Positions 9,441 through 59,894 of a DNA stretch of 64,000 nucleotides are shown here, piece by piece. The notes beneath the pieces are model-generated. The model was not told the origin of the DNA and made no database searches. It saw only the letters and a program-made list of their open reading frames with translations. The first letter of the stretch is position 1, and the number at the start of each line of letters is the position of its first letter. The stretch is taken from positions 59,583-123,582 of IMG/VR virus record IMGVR_UViG_3300025362_000004; one strand, 5' to 3'. A program made the translations under genes and the position numbers. The DNA is from a virus.

Positions 9441-9518
9441 GGGAGTGTGACGCAACTGGAAAGACGTGTTAGTCTTAGAAACTAAATTTTGGGGGTTCAA
9501 ATCCCCCTACTCCCACCA
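9441..9518 (+). tRNA. tRNA with UAG anticodon (Leu CUA codons), class I body
   Basis: Acceptor GGGAGTG/TACTCCC, A73, CCA; loop CTTAGAA on TTAGT/ACTAA. Variable region about 6 nt. Confidence 0.78.
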
Positions 9519-18005: not shown

Positions 18006-18397
18006 GGGGCTGTTTATGGATTCGACAGGGTAAAAACGGATACGATTAGCATAGGTTCGATGGAACTAAAACACACGATAAAACAATCGGAAACTTATTT
18101 AACACAGTTATTTCTTGGGTAAAGGGTTTATTCTCTCCAAGAGTAGCACTTTCAGTCTAAGAAGAGACAGAACGAATTTATAACTATTACCTATAAGTTA
18201 TAATTTCGCCAGAATATAGGATACGACTACTGACTAATACAAAGTGGTAAGAGATAAATTGTATTGAACGATTCGTAATAAAGTTTGTATGTAGTAAAAA
18301 GCGAAAAGTTCTAAAACCCTCTAAAAACATACTAACTATGTAGAATATGGTATCACGAATATCGTGGACAGGGGTTCAAATCCCCTCAGCTCCACCA
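18006..18397 (+). ncRNA. ssrA: Transfer-messenger RNA (tmRNA)
   Basis: The 5' end GGGGCTGTTTATGGATTCGA and the 3' end GGGGTTCAAATCCCCTCAG plus CTCCACCA are the conserved tRNA-like ends of tmRNA. The acceptor GGGGCTG/CAGCTCC has the G3-U70 pair needed for alanylation. The tag frame probably resumes near GAT 18077 and ends at TAA 18158-18160; it begins DKTIGNLFN and ends RVALSV, a hydrophobic degradation-type tail. The tag is about 27 residues, longer than the usual 8-15 but like the long tags of some Mollicutes. The product frees stalled ribosomes together with SmpB, which I do not see in the window. Confidence 0.92.
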
Positions 18398-21219: not shown

Positions 21220-21702
21220 ATGAAACGAAAAGTAATATTTTTAGATGTAGACGGAGTATTGAATAGCGAAAAATTTTTTATAGCAAGAAAACCAGGCTTA
21301 AATAAAGATAGCAATTATCCTTATAGCCACTTAGATAATGATGCAGTTGGAAGATTTGCATATTTTGTTGCAGAACTTAAAAATAATTTTGAAGTTAAAA
21401 TAGTTATTTCTTCGTCTTGGAGAGTAATGAATTATGATGAAATCAGACAAGTTCTTGCTAAAAACTTTATTGCGAGATATGATGAATTTACAAGAACAGA
21501 GTATAGTGATGGAGATAGAGGACAAGAAATTTTAAACTATTGTGCTTTTTATGGTATTGATGTATCTGAAATAATTGTTATTGATGATGATGATTTCGAT
21601 ATTAAAGATTATATCCCCGCAGAGAACTTCATTCATACCTCTTGGAAAAACGGATTAACCTACAAATTAGTTTCAGATTTCCTAAATAAATTAGCAGTGT
21701 AG
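21220..21702 (+). CDS. HAD-like protein of the Swiss Army Knife RNA-repair type, 160 aa
   Basis: FLDVDGVLNS (res ~7-16) is HAD motif I, SSSWR (~65-69) motif II, and IVIDDDDFDI (~120-129) motif IV. This trio with S-x-S-W-R is typical of the small HAD domains found in 'Swiss Army Knife' RNA repair proteins, likely polynucleotide phosphatases. Here it stands alone. With a ligase at 33.1 kb it might take part in tRNA or DNA end repair; that link is inference. Confidence 0.8.
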   Translation: MKRKVIFLDVDGVLNSEKFFIARKPGLNKDSNYPYSHLDNDAVGRFAYFVAELKNNFEVKIVISSSWRVMNYDEIRQVLAKNFIARYDEFTRTEYSDGDRGQEILNYCAFYGIDVSEIIVIDDDDFDIKDYIPAENFIHTSWKNGLTYKLVSDFLNKLAV

Positions 21703-21704
21703 AT

Positions 21705-21733
21705 TTGATTTTCTTTATGGTTTATGATATAAT
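21705..21733 (+). promoter_or_regulatory. Promoter of the 1.87 kb ncRNA
   Basis: TTGATT (21705-21710), 17-nt spacer, TATAAT (21728-21733), TATG extension. Confidence 0.8.
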
Positions 21734-23132
21734 TATATTATAACTAAGTGAGATATATAATATTATTTAGTTATCGGTCTTTGAAAAACAAATGAGAAAT
21801 TATCACTCATTTCATATGAAATTAATGGTGGCCTCAAAGCTGTTCGCGGCTTAAAGGTGGGTATCAACACGAACTCCAAAGGTTCGTTCGTAGTCCAAAA
21901 GACAAGGGGATATCGCTGTTATCATTAGTTGTTGTAAATTAATACCATCGGTGGTCATTTAGTAAAGTGAGAGTAGCGTCTCAAACTATACTATGGGAAA
22001 ATGATTTTACTGCTGTTGACGGGGAGAAATGCCTCTATAACACGGGTGGTAGTTGAACGTAGAAACCAGTAGAATTTTTAAATAATTAAGCAAATGCTAA
22101 ATTTGTAGGTAATCAATCCTACCTATTACACGCCTTGTGCAATATAGAGACCTTGCTAGTCAATATATGTAATAGTCGCATAATGAATAAGTTGTATATG
22201 TATTGGACTTCCTAATCAGAAGACCCTAACGTAAGTTAGTACACTAAAACCCTAACTCTTGCTTGGAGTAAGTGGCGTATAAATGAGGTTGAAATACCTT
22301 TCGAGCCTGTTGAGGCAAATTTATACGGCGAAACATATATAATTTAATTAGTGCATCGAGAAGCGACTCAGTATCTGGGGCCCGCGACCCTCCCAGGGCG
22401 TGGATGAGACCCAAGCGTAGATATGAAAACCGTTGAAACGGGTAAAACCGTGTATAATGAGTCAAGCCAATTCGAGTAAAAGCATAAAAACGGAAAAAAA
22501 TACAGATACTTTCTTAAAGTGAAAGTTGACTTGTTTAAGACAGGTAAAATAGATTAAAGCCTACGTACTTGTGAGTAATCAATCTCACTATCCTTCGGGA
22601 TATGTAATGAACCAACACAGTTAATGAATAAACTTATTGGTAAGATAATAAATCCAATCCGTTAATTTTATATGAAATGAGTGAATAACACGAGGCAGTT
22701 TAGTGTCTCTAAAGGGAAAAGGTGGGTAACCATCTGGAAGGTATTTGACAAATATCGCTATGTAATATAGCCCGTCTAAACAAAAGTAGTCAAGTGAGAG
22801 TATTAAAAATGTAGCTCACTCTTCAAGATAGTAACGAATTGTTGGAGAATAGATACTGTTATTATGTTAAAAGGAGTCAACGGCAAGTGCTTAGATTCTG
22901 TGGTTATCTCGTGGTGGGATAATCGGCATATCCAAAAATAATAGAATTGAAAGAAAACTACAAGGGTAATAAGTATGAGGTTAGCAACTAAATGCAGTTA
23001 CCCATTAAGTAAAGTAAAAATGGAGCTTTATTTAAAGTGAAAGTACCGCGAGGAAATCACAACGGAGATATTGAATATTTTGTGTCCCAAAAGGAAACGA
23101 AGTTCAGGTTGAAGTATATCTTCTGTCAAAAC

Positions 23133-23233
23133 AAACAATACATATGGGGGTTCGAGTCCCTCCCTAGCCTCCAATAAAAATTATATGGCTGGGTAGCTTA
23201 ATGGGTAAAGCAGTTGTCTAAGAAACAATACAT
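23133..23233 (+). tRNA. Circularly permuted tRNA (3' half before 5' half)
   Basis: The 3' half comes first: AAACAATACAT, T-arm GGGGG-TTCGAGT-CCCTC, acceptor strand CCTAGCC, U73, CCA (ends 23173). After 13 nt the 5' half follows: acceptor strand GGCTGGG (23187-23193), D-arm TAGCTTAATGGGTAAAGCA, and anticodon arm GTTGT-CTAAGAA-ACAAT (23213-23229). The two acceptor strands pair at all seven positions with one G-U. AAACAATACAT occurs at both outer ends, marking the joint in the anticodon arm. Read on the 5' half the anticodon is AAG. Confidence 0.7.
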
Positions 23234-23588
23234 TTGTATAAGCGAAATCTTCAAAGATTTAAGATGAAAATGCCTTAATTCCACAGAGTAATACTTAATG
23301 TGGAGCAGTAAAACTCGCAAGGTAATACTGTTTGATAAGGAAATGCACGGCGTCTCTAGCGAGACTTAGTGAGTCGCAAGCTCACACGGTAATGGAATTG
23401 TCGATTAATCTTAAATGACAGGGTGCTAAGCATCATCCTTCCAGAGATGGTAAAACAAAGCAGGCATGCTTCTAAACAGACCCGAGTCTGTGGATAAGTT
23501 AATTAACACGTGCAGATAAGCATCGCGTGGTACGATTAACTAAAGTAGGAGTATTAAAGATATAATCTCAGTCTTTAAAAACTAAACT

Positions 23589-23612
23589 AGCACTTCCGAG
23601 TGCTCTTTTTTT
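23589..23612 (+). terminator. Rho-independent terminator of the 1.87 kb ncRNA
   Basis: AGCACT-TCCG-AGTGCT stem-loop (UUCG-type loop) followed by CTTTTTTT. Confidence 0.9.
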
Positions 23613-23643
23613 ATGGAATAAAAGTAAATACATAAATTAAAAA

Positions 23644-23672
23644 TTGACTTTTGGTTTAAATTATGTTATAAT
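23644..23672 (+). promoter_or_regulatory. Promoter of the 23717-25333 operon
   Basis: TTGACT (23644-23649), 17-nt spacer, TATAAT (23667-23672), TATG extension. Confidence 0.85.
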
Positions 23673-23716
23673 TAAGTATAAAAAGATAGATATATATTTA
23701 ATATTAGGAGAGTAAA

Positions 23717-24121
23717 ATGAATAGTACTGAAGCACACATAAAATATAACGATTTAATAACTAAATTAAAATTAACTTTACCTTATGGAAATTTTAATGAT
23801 TTAAGCATTTCAGATTACTTTAAAAATCGCAAGACTGGACCAAAGCGTTGGTTATATAATCGTCATCACATCTGTGAAATAGATATAAGCGGTTCAAGAA
23901 TTATGCAATCAGGATATGCTAACTCAGAATCAATAATTGTAGATACAGATACTCATTGTGTATTACACTACTTAATTATTTTAAGTGGCAGGACTAGACC
24001 AGATTGGGGTATGCGATTACAATTCGATAACATACATGAATGGGAAGAATCAATAAGAAGAGGTTGCAGAAAATATAATATACCATTTGATTATGAATGG
24101 CAAAAAAGTATAAGGAGTTAA
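23717..24121 (+). CDS. Hypothetical protein, 134 aa
   Basis: First gene after the 23644 promoter, with TAGGAGAG before ATG. Contains a basic patch (KNRKTGPKRWLYNRHHICE) and a Trp-rich C-terminal half. No recognised motif. Next gene starts 3 nt later, so this is an operon of four genes. Confidence 0.7.
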   Translation: MNSTEAHIKYNDLITKLKLTLPYGNFNDLSISDYFKNRKTGPKRWLYNRHHICEIDISGSRIMQSGYANSESIIVDTDTHCVLHYLIILSGRTRPDWGMRLQFDNIHEWEESIRRGCRKYNIPFDYEWQKSIRS

Positions 24122-24799: not shown

Positions 24800-25333
24800 A
24801 TGAGAAAACAAATGGTATTAAATTTATTCGGTGGGCCTGGGACAGGCAAATCAACAGGAGCGGCTTATATATTTAGCAAATTAAAAATTGATGGATATGA
24901 CGTAGAATTAGTTACGGAGTTTGCTAAAGATAAAGTATACGAAGATACAAAAGAAGTATGGAATAATCAACTTTATATATTCGGTAAACAGAGTTTTAGA
25001 TTATCGAGAATAGAGGGAAAAGTAGATTTGATTATAACTGATGCACCGATATTGCTTTCAGTTTATTACAATCAAGGCAAGTTAAGTTGGCACTTCGATG
25101 AAATGGTAGAAGAATTTCATAATGACTTTGATAATATAAATATATTTTTAAAAAGAGTTAAAGAATATAATCCTAAAGGAAGATTCCAGACAGAAAAGCA
25201 AGCAATACAGATTGATGATGACGTAAAACAAATGCTAAGAGATTTAAACGAATCATATATATGTTATCCTGCTGATGAAGGCGGCTATCAAAGAATATAT
25301 GAAAAAATCAAATTTGTATTAGACAACCTATAA
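24800..25333 (+). CDS. AAA/P-loop nucleotide-binding protein (NadR/Ttd14-like), 177 aa
   Basis: Walker A FGGPGTGKST (res ~9-18) and LIITDAPILLSVYY (~75-88) as Walker B-like D-A-P with nearby Arg residues (RVKEYNPKGRFQ, ~128-139), the pattern of small phage ATP-binding proteins related to the NadR kinase domain. It may phosphorylate a nucleotide or nicotinamide-type substrate, but the substrate is not evident. AAAGGAG precedes ATG; a terminator follows at once. Confidence 0.8.
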   Translation: MRKQMVLNLFGGPGTGKSTGAAYIFSKLKIDGYDVELVTEFAKDKVYEDTKEVWNNQLYIFGKQSFRLSRIEGKVDLIITDAPILLSVYYNQGKLSWHFDEMVEEFHNDFDNINIFLKRVKEYNPKGRFQTEKQAIQIDDDVKQMLRDLNESYICYPADEGGYQRIYEKIKFVLDNL

Positions 25334-25458: not shown

Positions 25459-27345
25459 ATGGCAATACTTAATATTACCTATGGTTTATTTGGTGGAATT
25501 AATAATGTTGGGAACCCAGCATCATATGAAAGTACAACAGATTTACCAGTAACGCTACTAGACCCTACTAAGGAAGGATATACCTTTGTAGACTGGTATG
25601 ATAATGGAGATTTTATCGGAGACCCTATAACAGAGATTCCGTTAGGAACAACATCAGACGAAGCAGTTTATGCTGAGTTTACAATTAATTCTTATGCATT
25701 ACAATTTACAGACCATGATGATACCGTTCTTCAAACGGCAGATTATGAATTTGGAGCTGACACAAGTGGAGTGACAGCACCAGTAGCTCCTACAAGAACT
25801 GGATATGTATTTAGCGCATGGGATATATCAATTCCAGAAACAATGCCTGCGGCAGTAGTAACAATCCAAGCGATATATACAGCAGAACAACATGTATTAA
25901 GCTTTGAAAGCAATGGTGGTTCAGCAGTAACATCACTTACACAAGACACAGGTTCAGCAGTGGTTCAACCAGCTAACCCAACTAAAGAAGGATATGTATT
26001 CGATGATTGGTACAATGAAGTTGGATTATCAACAGCTTATGTATTTGATACAATGCCAGCAGTAGATACAGAAATCTATGCAGGTTGGACAGTAGTTCAA
26101 TATACAATTACTTTTGATAGTAATGGCGGTACAGTTGTAGCACCAATTACACAAGATTTTGGTACAGTAGTTACTGAACCTGCAGACCCAACTAAAGCAA
26201 ACCTAAACTTTAGAGTATGGTCTTCAGATGCAGAGTTGACTCAAGAATATATTTTTGATACAATGCCTGCAGAAGACATCACCGTATATGGATATTGGTA
26301 TGCCGTTTTAACTTATGATTCAAATGGTGGTAGTGCAGTAGCTCAAGAAAATGTTGGCGAAGGCAATACACCAGTAGAGCCTGATGCACCGATATTCGCA
26401 GGATATACATTTAATGGGTGGTATATAGATGATAATACATTCTTAGTGCCAGTTGATTTTGAAACTCCACTTACAGCAGATGAAGTATTTTATGCTGAAT
26501 GGGTAGCAGTTCTTTATTCAGCACAATATTTAGATTGGGACGGGGCAGTTCTTCAAACAGCTAACTATGAATTCGGAGCAGATACAAGCGGAGTAACACC
26601 TCCAGCTGAACCAACTAGAACAGGTTGGACATTTACAGCTTGGGATTCAGTAGCACCAGCGACAATGCCAGTTGACGGAATAACTATTACAGCTACTTAT
26701 ACAATAGATGTAATCACAATGACATTCGATACAGGTGTAGGTTCAGTAGTAGCACCGTATGTTCAAGACTATGGGACACCTGTAGTAGAACCTACAACTT
26801 CTGAAACTGGTTATACATTTGATGGCTGGTTCGAAGAAGCAGAGTTTACAACTCCTTACGTATTTACAACAATGCCTGCGGCGAATTTAACAATTTATGC
26901 TAAACTTACAGAGTTGGTATTTAATATTACTTACGTAAATGTATTAGGAATAGCACACACTAACCCTGCAACATACGAGTCAGATACGCCTGTCACATTC
27001 ACAGACCCAACAACAACAACAGGATATACTTTTAAAGGTTGGTATAATGCAATTAGACAAGGAACAGAAGTCTTAGGAACTACAACAGAAACTATTGGTA
27101 GTTTCACAGTATATGCTCAATGGGTTATGGTAAATAATCAAATTGCAATACCACAAGTTAATGCAGATGACACAGATTTAAGAATACCTACTTCTGCTAT
27201 CAGAATATCTGGTACAGCAAAAACACCAACAGGATATGCAATGTGGGTTGAAACAGATAGTTATAAAAACTATACGTTCCCTACTAAATATGTTACATTG
27301 GCAGAAGCAGTAGCGGCTAGAGATGCTTTCTTAGCACTATTATAA
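25459..27345 (+). CDS. InlB B-repeat (Listeria-Bacteroides repeat) protein, 628 aa
   Basis: About eight copies of the ~65-residue InlB B-repeat run through residues 1-560, recognisable by repeated DSNGGS or equivalent, then P-T-K/R-x-G-Y-x-F-x-x-W, then TMPAxDxTxYAxW. The last ~70 residues differ (IPQVNADDTDLRIPTSAIRI...). In Firmicutes these repeats occur on surface adhesins; in phages they decorate capsids or tails or bind host surfaces. There is no signal peptide. All Trp codons are TGG. It forms a one-gene unit with its own promoter and terminator, away from the tail genes. Confidence 0.88.
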   Translation: MAILNITYGLFGGINNVGNPASYESTTDLPVTLLDPTKEGYTFVDWYDNGDFIGDPITEIPLGTTSDEAVYAEFTINSYALQFTDHDDTVLQTADYEFGADTSGVTAPVAPTRTGYVFSAWDISIPETMPAAVVTIQAIYTAEQHVLSFESNGGSAVTSLTQDTGSAVVQPANPTKEGYVFDDWYNEVGLSTAYVFDTMPAVDTEIYAGWTVVQYTITFDSNGGTVVAPITQDFGTVVTEPADPTKANLNFRVWSSDAELTQEYIFDTMPAEDITVYGYWYAVLTYDSNGGSAVAQENVGEGNTPVEPDAPIFAGYTFNGWYIDDNTFLVPVDFETPLTADEVFYAEWVAVLYSAQYLDWDGAVLQTANYEFGADTSGVTPPAEPTRTGWTFTAWDSVAPATMPVDGITITATYTIDVITMTFDTGVGSVVAPYVQDYGTPVVEPTTSETGYTFDGWFEEAEFTTPYVFTTMPAANLTIYAKLTELVFNITYVNVLGIAHTNPATYESDTPVTFTDPTTTTGYTFKGWYNAIRQGTEVLGTTTETIGSFTVYAQWVMVNNQIAIPQVNADDTDLRIPTSAIRISGTAKTPTGYAMWVETDSYKNYTFPTKYVTLAEAVAARDAFLALL

Positions 27346-27418: not shown

Positions 27419-27531
27419 AAATTATAAAGATGTAAAGGTAAAGTTATTGGGAAATAACTACACAAAATTAAGAGCCTAGAACAGGTAGTCTGATTGCCAC
27501 TTTAAATCAAAAAACTTAAAGGTGGTTTAAA

Positions 27532-28005
27532 ATGAAAAATTTAAAAAGAAAACTTATTGCGACATTCACAGTAATGATGTTTGCCTTACTGGCAACAATT
27601 GGAACAACTTATGCTTACTGGAATTACTTTGTACATACAGAGTCTAGTATTACAGTAGAAGTTGGAGTAGCCGACAGAATAGTCGTAGCAATTAACACAA
27701 CAGGTGCAGGTGCTTTAGTCCCAGCAGGACAATCTACAGGTGCTGAAGTTGAATCTATTGTATTGACTTATGATGTTTCAGTTACACAAGGTGCAGTTGA
27801 CAGTGGTATTACAACATTATCTGTAACAACAGCAAATGAATCAACAGCATTAGTTAACATCTCTGTTAGCGCGCCAACAACTTTAACAGTGGCTAATCAA
27901 ACAGTTACGGTTACAGTTACATTAGATTCCCCAGCAGACCAAGCGGCTTATGATGCTTTAATTGCAGCTGGGATTACATTCGACTTAGTTTTTACTATAG
28001 CGTAA
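27532..28005 (+). CDS. Secreted camelysin/TasA-like protein, 157 aa
   Basis: A Sec signal peptide spans res 1-~28: basic MKNLKRK, hydrophobic LIATFTVMMFALLATIGTTY, then AYW. The T-Y-A-Y-W exit resembles SipW-type signals of TasA/camelysin proteins. The mature part is a Thr/Val-rich beta-sandwich with no Cys. Phages rarely encode such proteins; it may change the surface of infected cells. AGGTGG precedes ATG. A second exported protein follows 8 nt later. Confidence 0.75.
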   Translation: MKNLKRKLIATFTVMMFALLATIGTTYAYWNYFVHTESSITVEVGVADRIVVAINTTGAGALVPAGQSTGAEVESIVLTYDVSVTQGAVDSGITTLSVTTANESTALVNISVSAPTTLTVANQTVTVTVTLDSPADQAAYDALIAAGITFDLVFTIA

Positions 28006-59338: not shown

Positions 59339-59894
59339 AGAGATGCATGTAGATATAGAAACAACAGGTTTTAGTAGAGAATGGGATTTTATTTTAGAAA
59401 TTGCGGCTATTATATATGATTCAGAAACAGATAAAGAATTGACTAGATTCCACGAATATATTAAACCAGGCAAAACTATATCAAAGAAAATTACAGATAT
59501 AACTGGTATCACAAACGACCAAGTTAAAAACTGTAGAAATGAGTTTGAAGTCCTAACTGATTACATAGAATGGGTATTTATAAATAAACCAGATGTAGAA
59601 ATAGGACACAATGTAAAAACGTTTGACCATCAATTCTTTGCAAGAAAATGTGAAAAATATAGAATAACTATGTATGATATAGAAATTATAGATACTTTAA
59701 AACTTGCAAGACAAATGAGTAAAGACGGAAAAATAAAAGTTGCTAATCATAAACAACCAACTATTGCACAGTATTTTAATATAGACTACCAAGCGCATAG
59801 TGCGATTGAAGATATATTAGCAAACAGAAAAATGTATAAAAAAATGACAGTTGAAACCGGCGTGAAAAGTAAGAGAAAAGAGCTAGGTTTTTAA
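59331..59894 (+). CDS. DnaQ-like 3'-5' exonuclease (proofreading type), 187 aa
   Basis: Exo I MHVDIETTGFSREWD (res ~5-19), Exo II IGHNVKTFDHQFF (~89-101), Exo III AHSAIEDILANRKM (~156-169) give the DEDDh set. Size and motif spacing fit the epsilon proofreading subunit. Starts at TTG with ACAGGAGGCG upstream, overlapping the previous stop. Likely edits for the DnaE-type polymerase, which lacks its own exonuclease. Confidence 0.88.
   Translation: MIKEMHVDIETTGFSREWDFILEIAAIIYDSETDKELTRFHEYIKPGKTISKKITDITGITNDQVKNCRNEFEVLTDYIEWVFINKPDVEIGHNVKTFDHQFFARKCEKYRITMYDIEIIDTLKLARQMSKDGKIKVANHKQPTIAQYFNIDYQAHSAIEDILANRKMYKKMTVETGVKSKRKELGF

Follow-up and report, generated by a model that had tools for sequence, protein, structure and literature searches.

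What does a virus keep in almost two kilobases of DNA that hold no gene? The question is raised by positions 21741–23612 of a 64,000-nucleotide (nt) window, the whole stretch of DNA analysed, which is taken from a metagenomic virus contig (IMG/VR record IMGVR_UViG_3300025362_000004, positions 59,583 to 123,582). A preliminary description, made from the letters alone, had proposed a non-coding transcript with its own promoter and terminator, longer than a typical GOLLD RNA and either a composite or a new class of GOLLD/ROOL-type RNA. The 3′ part of the stretch matches GOLLD, an 882-nt domain upstream is closed upon itself, the GOLLD linker holds a cloverleaf in circularly permuted order, and a boxA-like motif stands near the 5′ end. 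The reading that we favour, with moderate confidence and from sequence, is that the stretch would be one 1.87-kb non-coding phage transcript, a GOLLD extended 5′ by a ROOL-like domain, with a permuted tRNA in its linker, and probably the subunit of a cage.

Bounds, leader and GOLLD part

The region 21702–23717 contains no + strand open reading frame (ORF) of at least 60 amino acids (aa), and the stretch itself is thus as gene-free as had been described. The sole antisense ORF (22244–22465, 73 aa, TTG start) has no PHROG match, and a coding reading was rejected on these grounds. The full-length RNA has a minimum free energy of −488.8 kcal/mol, and its two parts fold far better than shuffles (z = −5.67 for 21803–22684 and −4.06 for 22640–23612), in keeping with the density of hairpins noted earlier. 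Its outer features and GOLLD part are as follows.

21705–21733, +: promoter-like site TTGATT-17-TATAAT with TG before the −10 (consensus match only, 10/12)
21741–21773, +: leader hairpin directly 5′ of boxA, at a boxB-like position (folds)
21776–21788, +: boxA-like GGTCTTTGAAAAA, one base off GTTCTTTGAAAAA (motif match; same motif at the 5′ end of other GOLLD loci)
22685–23062, +: GOLLD 5′ region, poorly conserved (extent estimated from position, length from PMC12286853)
23063–23574, +: GOLLD conserved 3′ region (RF02032 full model, 1–416, 150.4 bits)
23589–23611, +: intrinsic terminator, stem AGCACU/AGUGCU, loop UCCG, then CTTTTTTT

The promoter-like site predicts a transcription start at ~21741. 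Promoter-like sites are not more numerous in the region than expected by chance (7 vs 8.7 in shuffles), and this one gains its weight from its position directly 5′ of the hairpin and boxA leader, not from the number of sites. The two bounds proposed earlier therefore stand as a promoter-like and a terminator-like site, with the correction that the terminator loop reads UCCG and not UUCG.

The RF02032 match scores 150.4 bits vs a cut-off of 150 (E 4e-40 in 64 kb), and the 123.6-kb record has no second GOLLD. No Rfam class other than GOLLD scores above its cut-off in 21741–23612, and OLE, HEARO and group I/II introns, which had been named as models to check, give no match. Positions 22999–23112 are partially similar to two other GOLLD loci (L110 and L119). 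The surroundings also fit GOLLD, since the window encodes 39 tRNAs and a transfer-messenger RNA (tmRNA) (ARAGORN), along with an SPbeta-type RecJ-like exonuclease whose best phage matches are SPbeta-like phages at 33–34% identity.

Other GOLLD loci were collected by pattern scan, and all figures given for them are among the matches listed. The pattern GAGAAATNNNNNTATAACAC was dropped, as it matched mostly unrelated DNA, as was a pattern close to the GOLLD 3′ end, which matched coding-type DNA without GOLLD; in bacterial genomes, the GOLLD pattern returned a mixture of true and chance matches. With the copies of the window itself left out, GTTCTTTRA occurs 5′ of GOLLD in 72 of the 96 loci that include 1 kb or more of upstream sequence, and 74 sense-strand matches fall in the bins 700–900 nt before the GTGGATAAG anchor, with 0–7 in each of the other nearby 100-nt bins and no antisense matches there. 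The usual distance to GTGGATAAG is ~680 to 890 nt (loci L002–L120), typically ~830 nt, vs 1714 nt for the boxA-like motif of the window. This shift of ~880 nt beyond the usual distance matches the length of the inserted 882-nt domain, which also accounts for the excess over the ~0.8–0.9 kb that GOLLD usually spans from leader to end, a usual size and not a strict limit. GTTCTTTRA is also present in some ROOLs (L154, L171).

GTTCTTTRA is the rrn boxA consensus of Nus-dependent antitermination. The presence of an rrn-type boxA at GOLLD 5′ ends suggests that GOLLD RNAs as a class may use antitermination of the Nus type, which would be a way for such long untranslated RNAs to avoid early termination. 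The order boxB-boxA-boxC of rrn leaders is described in PMC10250234, and our literature search found no paper linking boxA and GOLLD.

The self-closed upstream domain

Between the leader and GOLLD lies the domain that sets this RNA apart.

21803–22684, +: 882-nt autonomous ROOL-like domain with a closing helix of 26 bp (21803–21828/22659–22684)
21935–22187, +: ROOL-like core A (RF03087 model 185–523, 31.7 bits, E 5.9e-6 for the record)
22109–22118, +: GTAATCAATC in a hairpin loop of core A, a ROOL motif (motif match)
22346–22635, +: ROOL-like core B, weaker (RF03087 model 182–526, 19.7 bits, E 0.005 for the record)
22575–22584, +: GTAATCAATC in a hairpin loop of core B (motif match)

The arms of the strongest inverted repeat are 26 nt long and lie 830 nt apart, and all 26 positions pair (24 Watson-Crick and 2 G-U). 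In the whole-RNA fold, 25 of these 26 pairs have probabilities of 0.99–1.0 and the outermost 0.7; 267 pairs form within 21803–22684, and none crosses the domain ends. A long closing helix, P1, is a feature of ROOL, and the ROOL model (RF03087) matches twice in the 123.6-kb record, at neighbouring places on the same strand. Both scores lie under the Rfam cut-off of 99.1, and we therefore speak of a ROOL-like domain instead of a ROOL. The GUAAUCAAUC hairpin and the GAGAAAU/UAUAACAC core of ROOL are present in core A and, in part, in core B. An independent ROOL-core model, built from 11 collected ROOLs, ranked core A first in 64 kb (22008–22063, 21.7 bits, E 0.0025) and found in core B a partial hairpin and GUAUAA match (22438–22457, 8.0 bits); no score in the other GOLLD loci (599 kb) exceeded 16.1 bits. 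Among ~167 other records searched, most with a GOLLD motif, RF03087 matched only in the positive control L125, and no other GOLLD with such a ROOL-like domain appeared among the matches listed for these records.

An alternative, to which we give perhaps a quarter of the weight, is that the domain is a lineage-specific GOLLD extension without ROOL descent, whose ROOL scores come from common small motifs. This would agree with the two low scores, with the weak detection of core B by the second model, and with the absence from the window sequence of the GTAAGAAG...GGTCGCTCC block that is conserved in aligned ROOLs. However, both matches fall on the same region of the RF03087 model, the closing helix occupies the P1 position, core A is also recovered by the independent model, and two GTAATCAATC hairpins are observed vs 0.26 expected in the window. 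We therefore retain a ROOL-like domain joined to GOLLD, and between the options first offered, composite or new class, composite is the better one and the suggestion was largely right: GOLLD scores above its cut-off in the 3′ part, and the two sub-threshold ROOL matches lie inside the self-contained domain 5′ of it.

The same self-containment bears on whether this is one RNA or two. Elsewhere, ROOL and GOLLD occur as distinct RNAs; here, the upstream domain folds alone with no pair across its ends, and a weak promoter-like site is found at 22526–22555. All of this would suit two adjacent RNAs, a ROOL-like one at 21741–~22690 and a separate GOLLD at ~22690–23612, individually transcribed or processed. 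We hold this to be unlikely, as no terminator-like site was found inside 21741–23612 between the two parts and the RNA has a single boxA-like motif, at 21776, with none at the typical GOLLD distance of ~830 nt, although processing after joint transcription would be compatible with both observations.

The permuted tRNA of the linker

Within the GOLLD match, the linker contains the following elements.

23138–23239, +: 8-bp stalk (23138–23146/23231–23239) bearing the permuted tRNA at the variable-arm position (local fold)
23145–23231, +: circularly permuted tRNA-Leu(AAG) (fold, permuted-tRNA model, ARAGORN on reordered halves)
23146–23162, 23163–23169 and 23170–23173, +: its 3′ half, namely T arm, acceptor 3′ strand and T+CCA
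23174–23186, +: 13-nt spacer
23187–23193, 23196–23211 and 23213–23229, +: its 5′ half, namely acceptor 5′ strand, D arm and anticodon arm

The local fold is a complete cloverleaf in permuted order on the stalk, and ARAGORN reports tRNA-Leu(AAG) when the halves are put in normal order; the nearest window tRNA to this reordered sequence is tRNA-Leu 9441–9518. With a covariance model built from 26 window tRNAs rearranged to the permuted order, the linker was the top match in 977 kb (66.1 bits, 21/21 model pairs intact), and the remaining high scorers inspected were tandem tRNA junctions with mismatched acceptors. The linker of a distant GOLLD (L108) holds a tRNA permuted in the same way and in the same position (51.7 bits, second in 289 kb), and a normally ordered tRNA was found in the linker of 15 of 131 GOLLD loci among the matches listed (ARAGORN). 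The variable linker lies inside the GOLLD cage and sometimes contains tRNAs (PMC12286853), and a mycobacterial GOLLD with a pseudo-tRNA has been described (PMC6582537). In the whole-RNA fold, the acceptor stem reaches probabilities of 0.96–1.0 and the T stem 0.75–0.81.

The element could instead be what is left of a tandem tRNA pair, no longer functional, or simply a tRNA mimic of the YrlA type, in either case without a role in GOLLD. Its order is indeed that of tandem tRNA junctions, and it has a weak match to YrlA (RF02553) at 28 bits, short of the cut-off of 69. Unlike the high-scoring junctions shown, however, it keeps every model pair, and neither a remnant nor a mimic would account well for the recurrence of the element in L108 at the same place or for the normal tRNAs at that site in the 15 other GOLLDs, so that we regard this explanation as improbable and continue with a permuted tRNA that belongs to GOLLD.

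Several further observations concern such elements. A 12-nt perfect complement joins 22998–23009, in the GOLLD 5′ region, to 23197–23208, in the D arm; it may be chance, and as a real pairing it was rejected, its length being in the chance range and its probability 0.01 in the whole-RNA fold. Many GOLLD linkers of the GTGGATAAGTT subgroup carry a tRNA (L238, L239, L242, L244, L245, L249, L255–L257), and several of these, in which the anticodon stem is AU-rich or the anticodon has A34, may be non-decoding. On the minus strand of L041, a 372-kb phage contig, a permuted tRNA-like element in YrlA order lies outside GOLLD, ~6.8 kb downstream.

The sub-threshold ROOL scores and the missing ROOL block weigh against our overall reading, as do the GOLLD score that barely exceeds its cut-off and the low probabilities (0.12–0.23) that the whole-RNA fold gives to two stems of the permuted tRNA, those of the anticodon and D arms. 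Nor did the phage DNA searched contain a relative close enough for a covariation analysis, and the neighbouring proteins 23717–24121 and 21220–21702 gave no relatives.

Proposed role, genomic setting and relation to known RNAs

We infer a single transcript, cage assembly, processing and function from the features above. Transcription would start at the promoter-like site and run through an rrn-like antitermination leader of hairpin and boxA to the terminator, and the RNA would probably form a hollow homo-oligomer that encloses the linker, as does env-38 GOLLD, a 14-mer nanocage (PMC12286853). The tRNA-Leu would be fastened to the cage through the variable arm, its acceptor stem pointing away from the attachment. 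Maturation of a normally ordered linker tRNA would excise it from GOLLD, whereas the permuted tRNA could not leave, since each of its strands runs into GOLLD at the variable arm. If RNase P, for instance, trimmed the 13-nt spacer, only the acceptor end would be released, giving a free CCA end on a tRNA still attached. That the tRNA fold is kept in both orders at one site suggests that the folded tRNA itself has a role in the RNA, and this role is most likely the binding of tRNA-recognising partners inside the cage, perhaps holding or baiting a synthetase, the ribosome or an anticodon nuclease during infection. Ribosome binding has been reported in GOLLD pull-downs (PMC12286853). More speculatively, and with considerable doubt, the phage may have fused two cage-forming RNA classes in one subunit and display a tRNA within the cage. 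Held by the variable arm, this tRNA would have a free CCA end that might be chargeable, and the RNA would be a compartment built round a tRNA.

If the tRNA fold is truly kept in both orders at one site of GOLLD, then the fold matters there and not merely the release of a mature tRNA, which suggests a role with tRNA-binding partners that could be tested. A composite of ROOL-like and GOLLD parts would connect two cage classes described as sequence-unrelated.

The product of the gene directly upstream of the stretch (21220–21702) has a HAD domain of the RNA repair type known as 'Swiss Army Knife' (HAD_SAK_2, PF18143). An RNA-repair connection was considered and dropped, as the PHROGs match of the AAA_28 protein at 24800–25333 is to a thymidylate kinase family and the ligase carries the annotation DNA ligase. 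The window further contains the phage-encoded tmRNA (18006–18397, predicted tag SPEYRIRLLTNTKW), a protein of 628 aa (25459–27345) in which the Listeria-Bacteroides repeat (Flg_new) occurs six times, probably a surface or tail protein, and a c-di-GMP-I (cyclic di-GMP) riboswitch (27427–27501) upstream of ORF 27532–28005.

Besides forming homo-oligomeric cages, GOLLD (RF02032) is marked by induction at lysis. Compared with known systems, the RNA shares with GOLLD the full 416-position 3′ model, a phage genome beside a tRNA array, a variable linker that holds a tRNA in some members, and a boxA-like leader of the kind seen in most of the other GOLLDs examined, but differs in its length of 1.87 kb vs ~0.8–0.9 kb, its additional 882-nt domain and the circular permutation of its linker tRNA. 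ROOL (RF03087) is an octamer nanocage; the two RNAs have in common a P1-type closing helix, the GAGAAAU-5-UAUAACAC core (in core A), the GUAAUCAAUC hairpin and a tRNA neighbourhood, and they differ in that the window domain scores below the cut-off, lacks GTAAGAAG...GGTCGCTCC, apparently has two cores per domain and is joined to GOLLD. The bacterial Y RNA YrlA (RF02553) likewise has a tRNA-like module in the order T arm-acceptor-D arm, but the element of the window also possesses a complete anticodon arm as well as CCA, lies inside GOLLD and scores 28 vs 69 bits. Finally, 34 permuted tRNA genes were known by 2014, in algae and archaea (PMC3978253), and there too the 3′ half precedes the 5′ half with a short spacer between them. 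Those are stand-alone genes that mature by bulge-helix-bulge (BHB) splicing, whereas the window element forms part of a large RNA from a bacterial virus and has its break at the variable arm.
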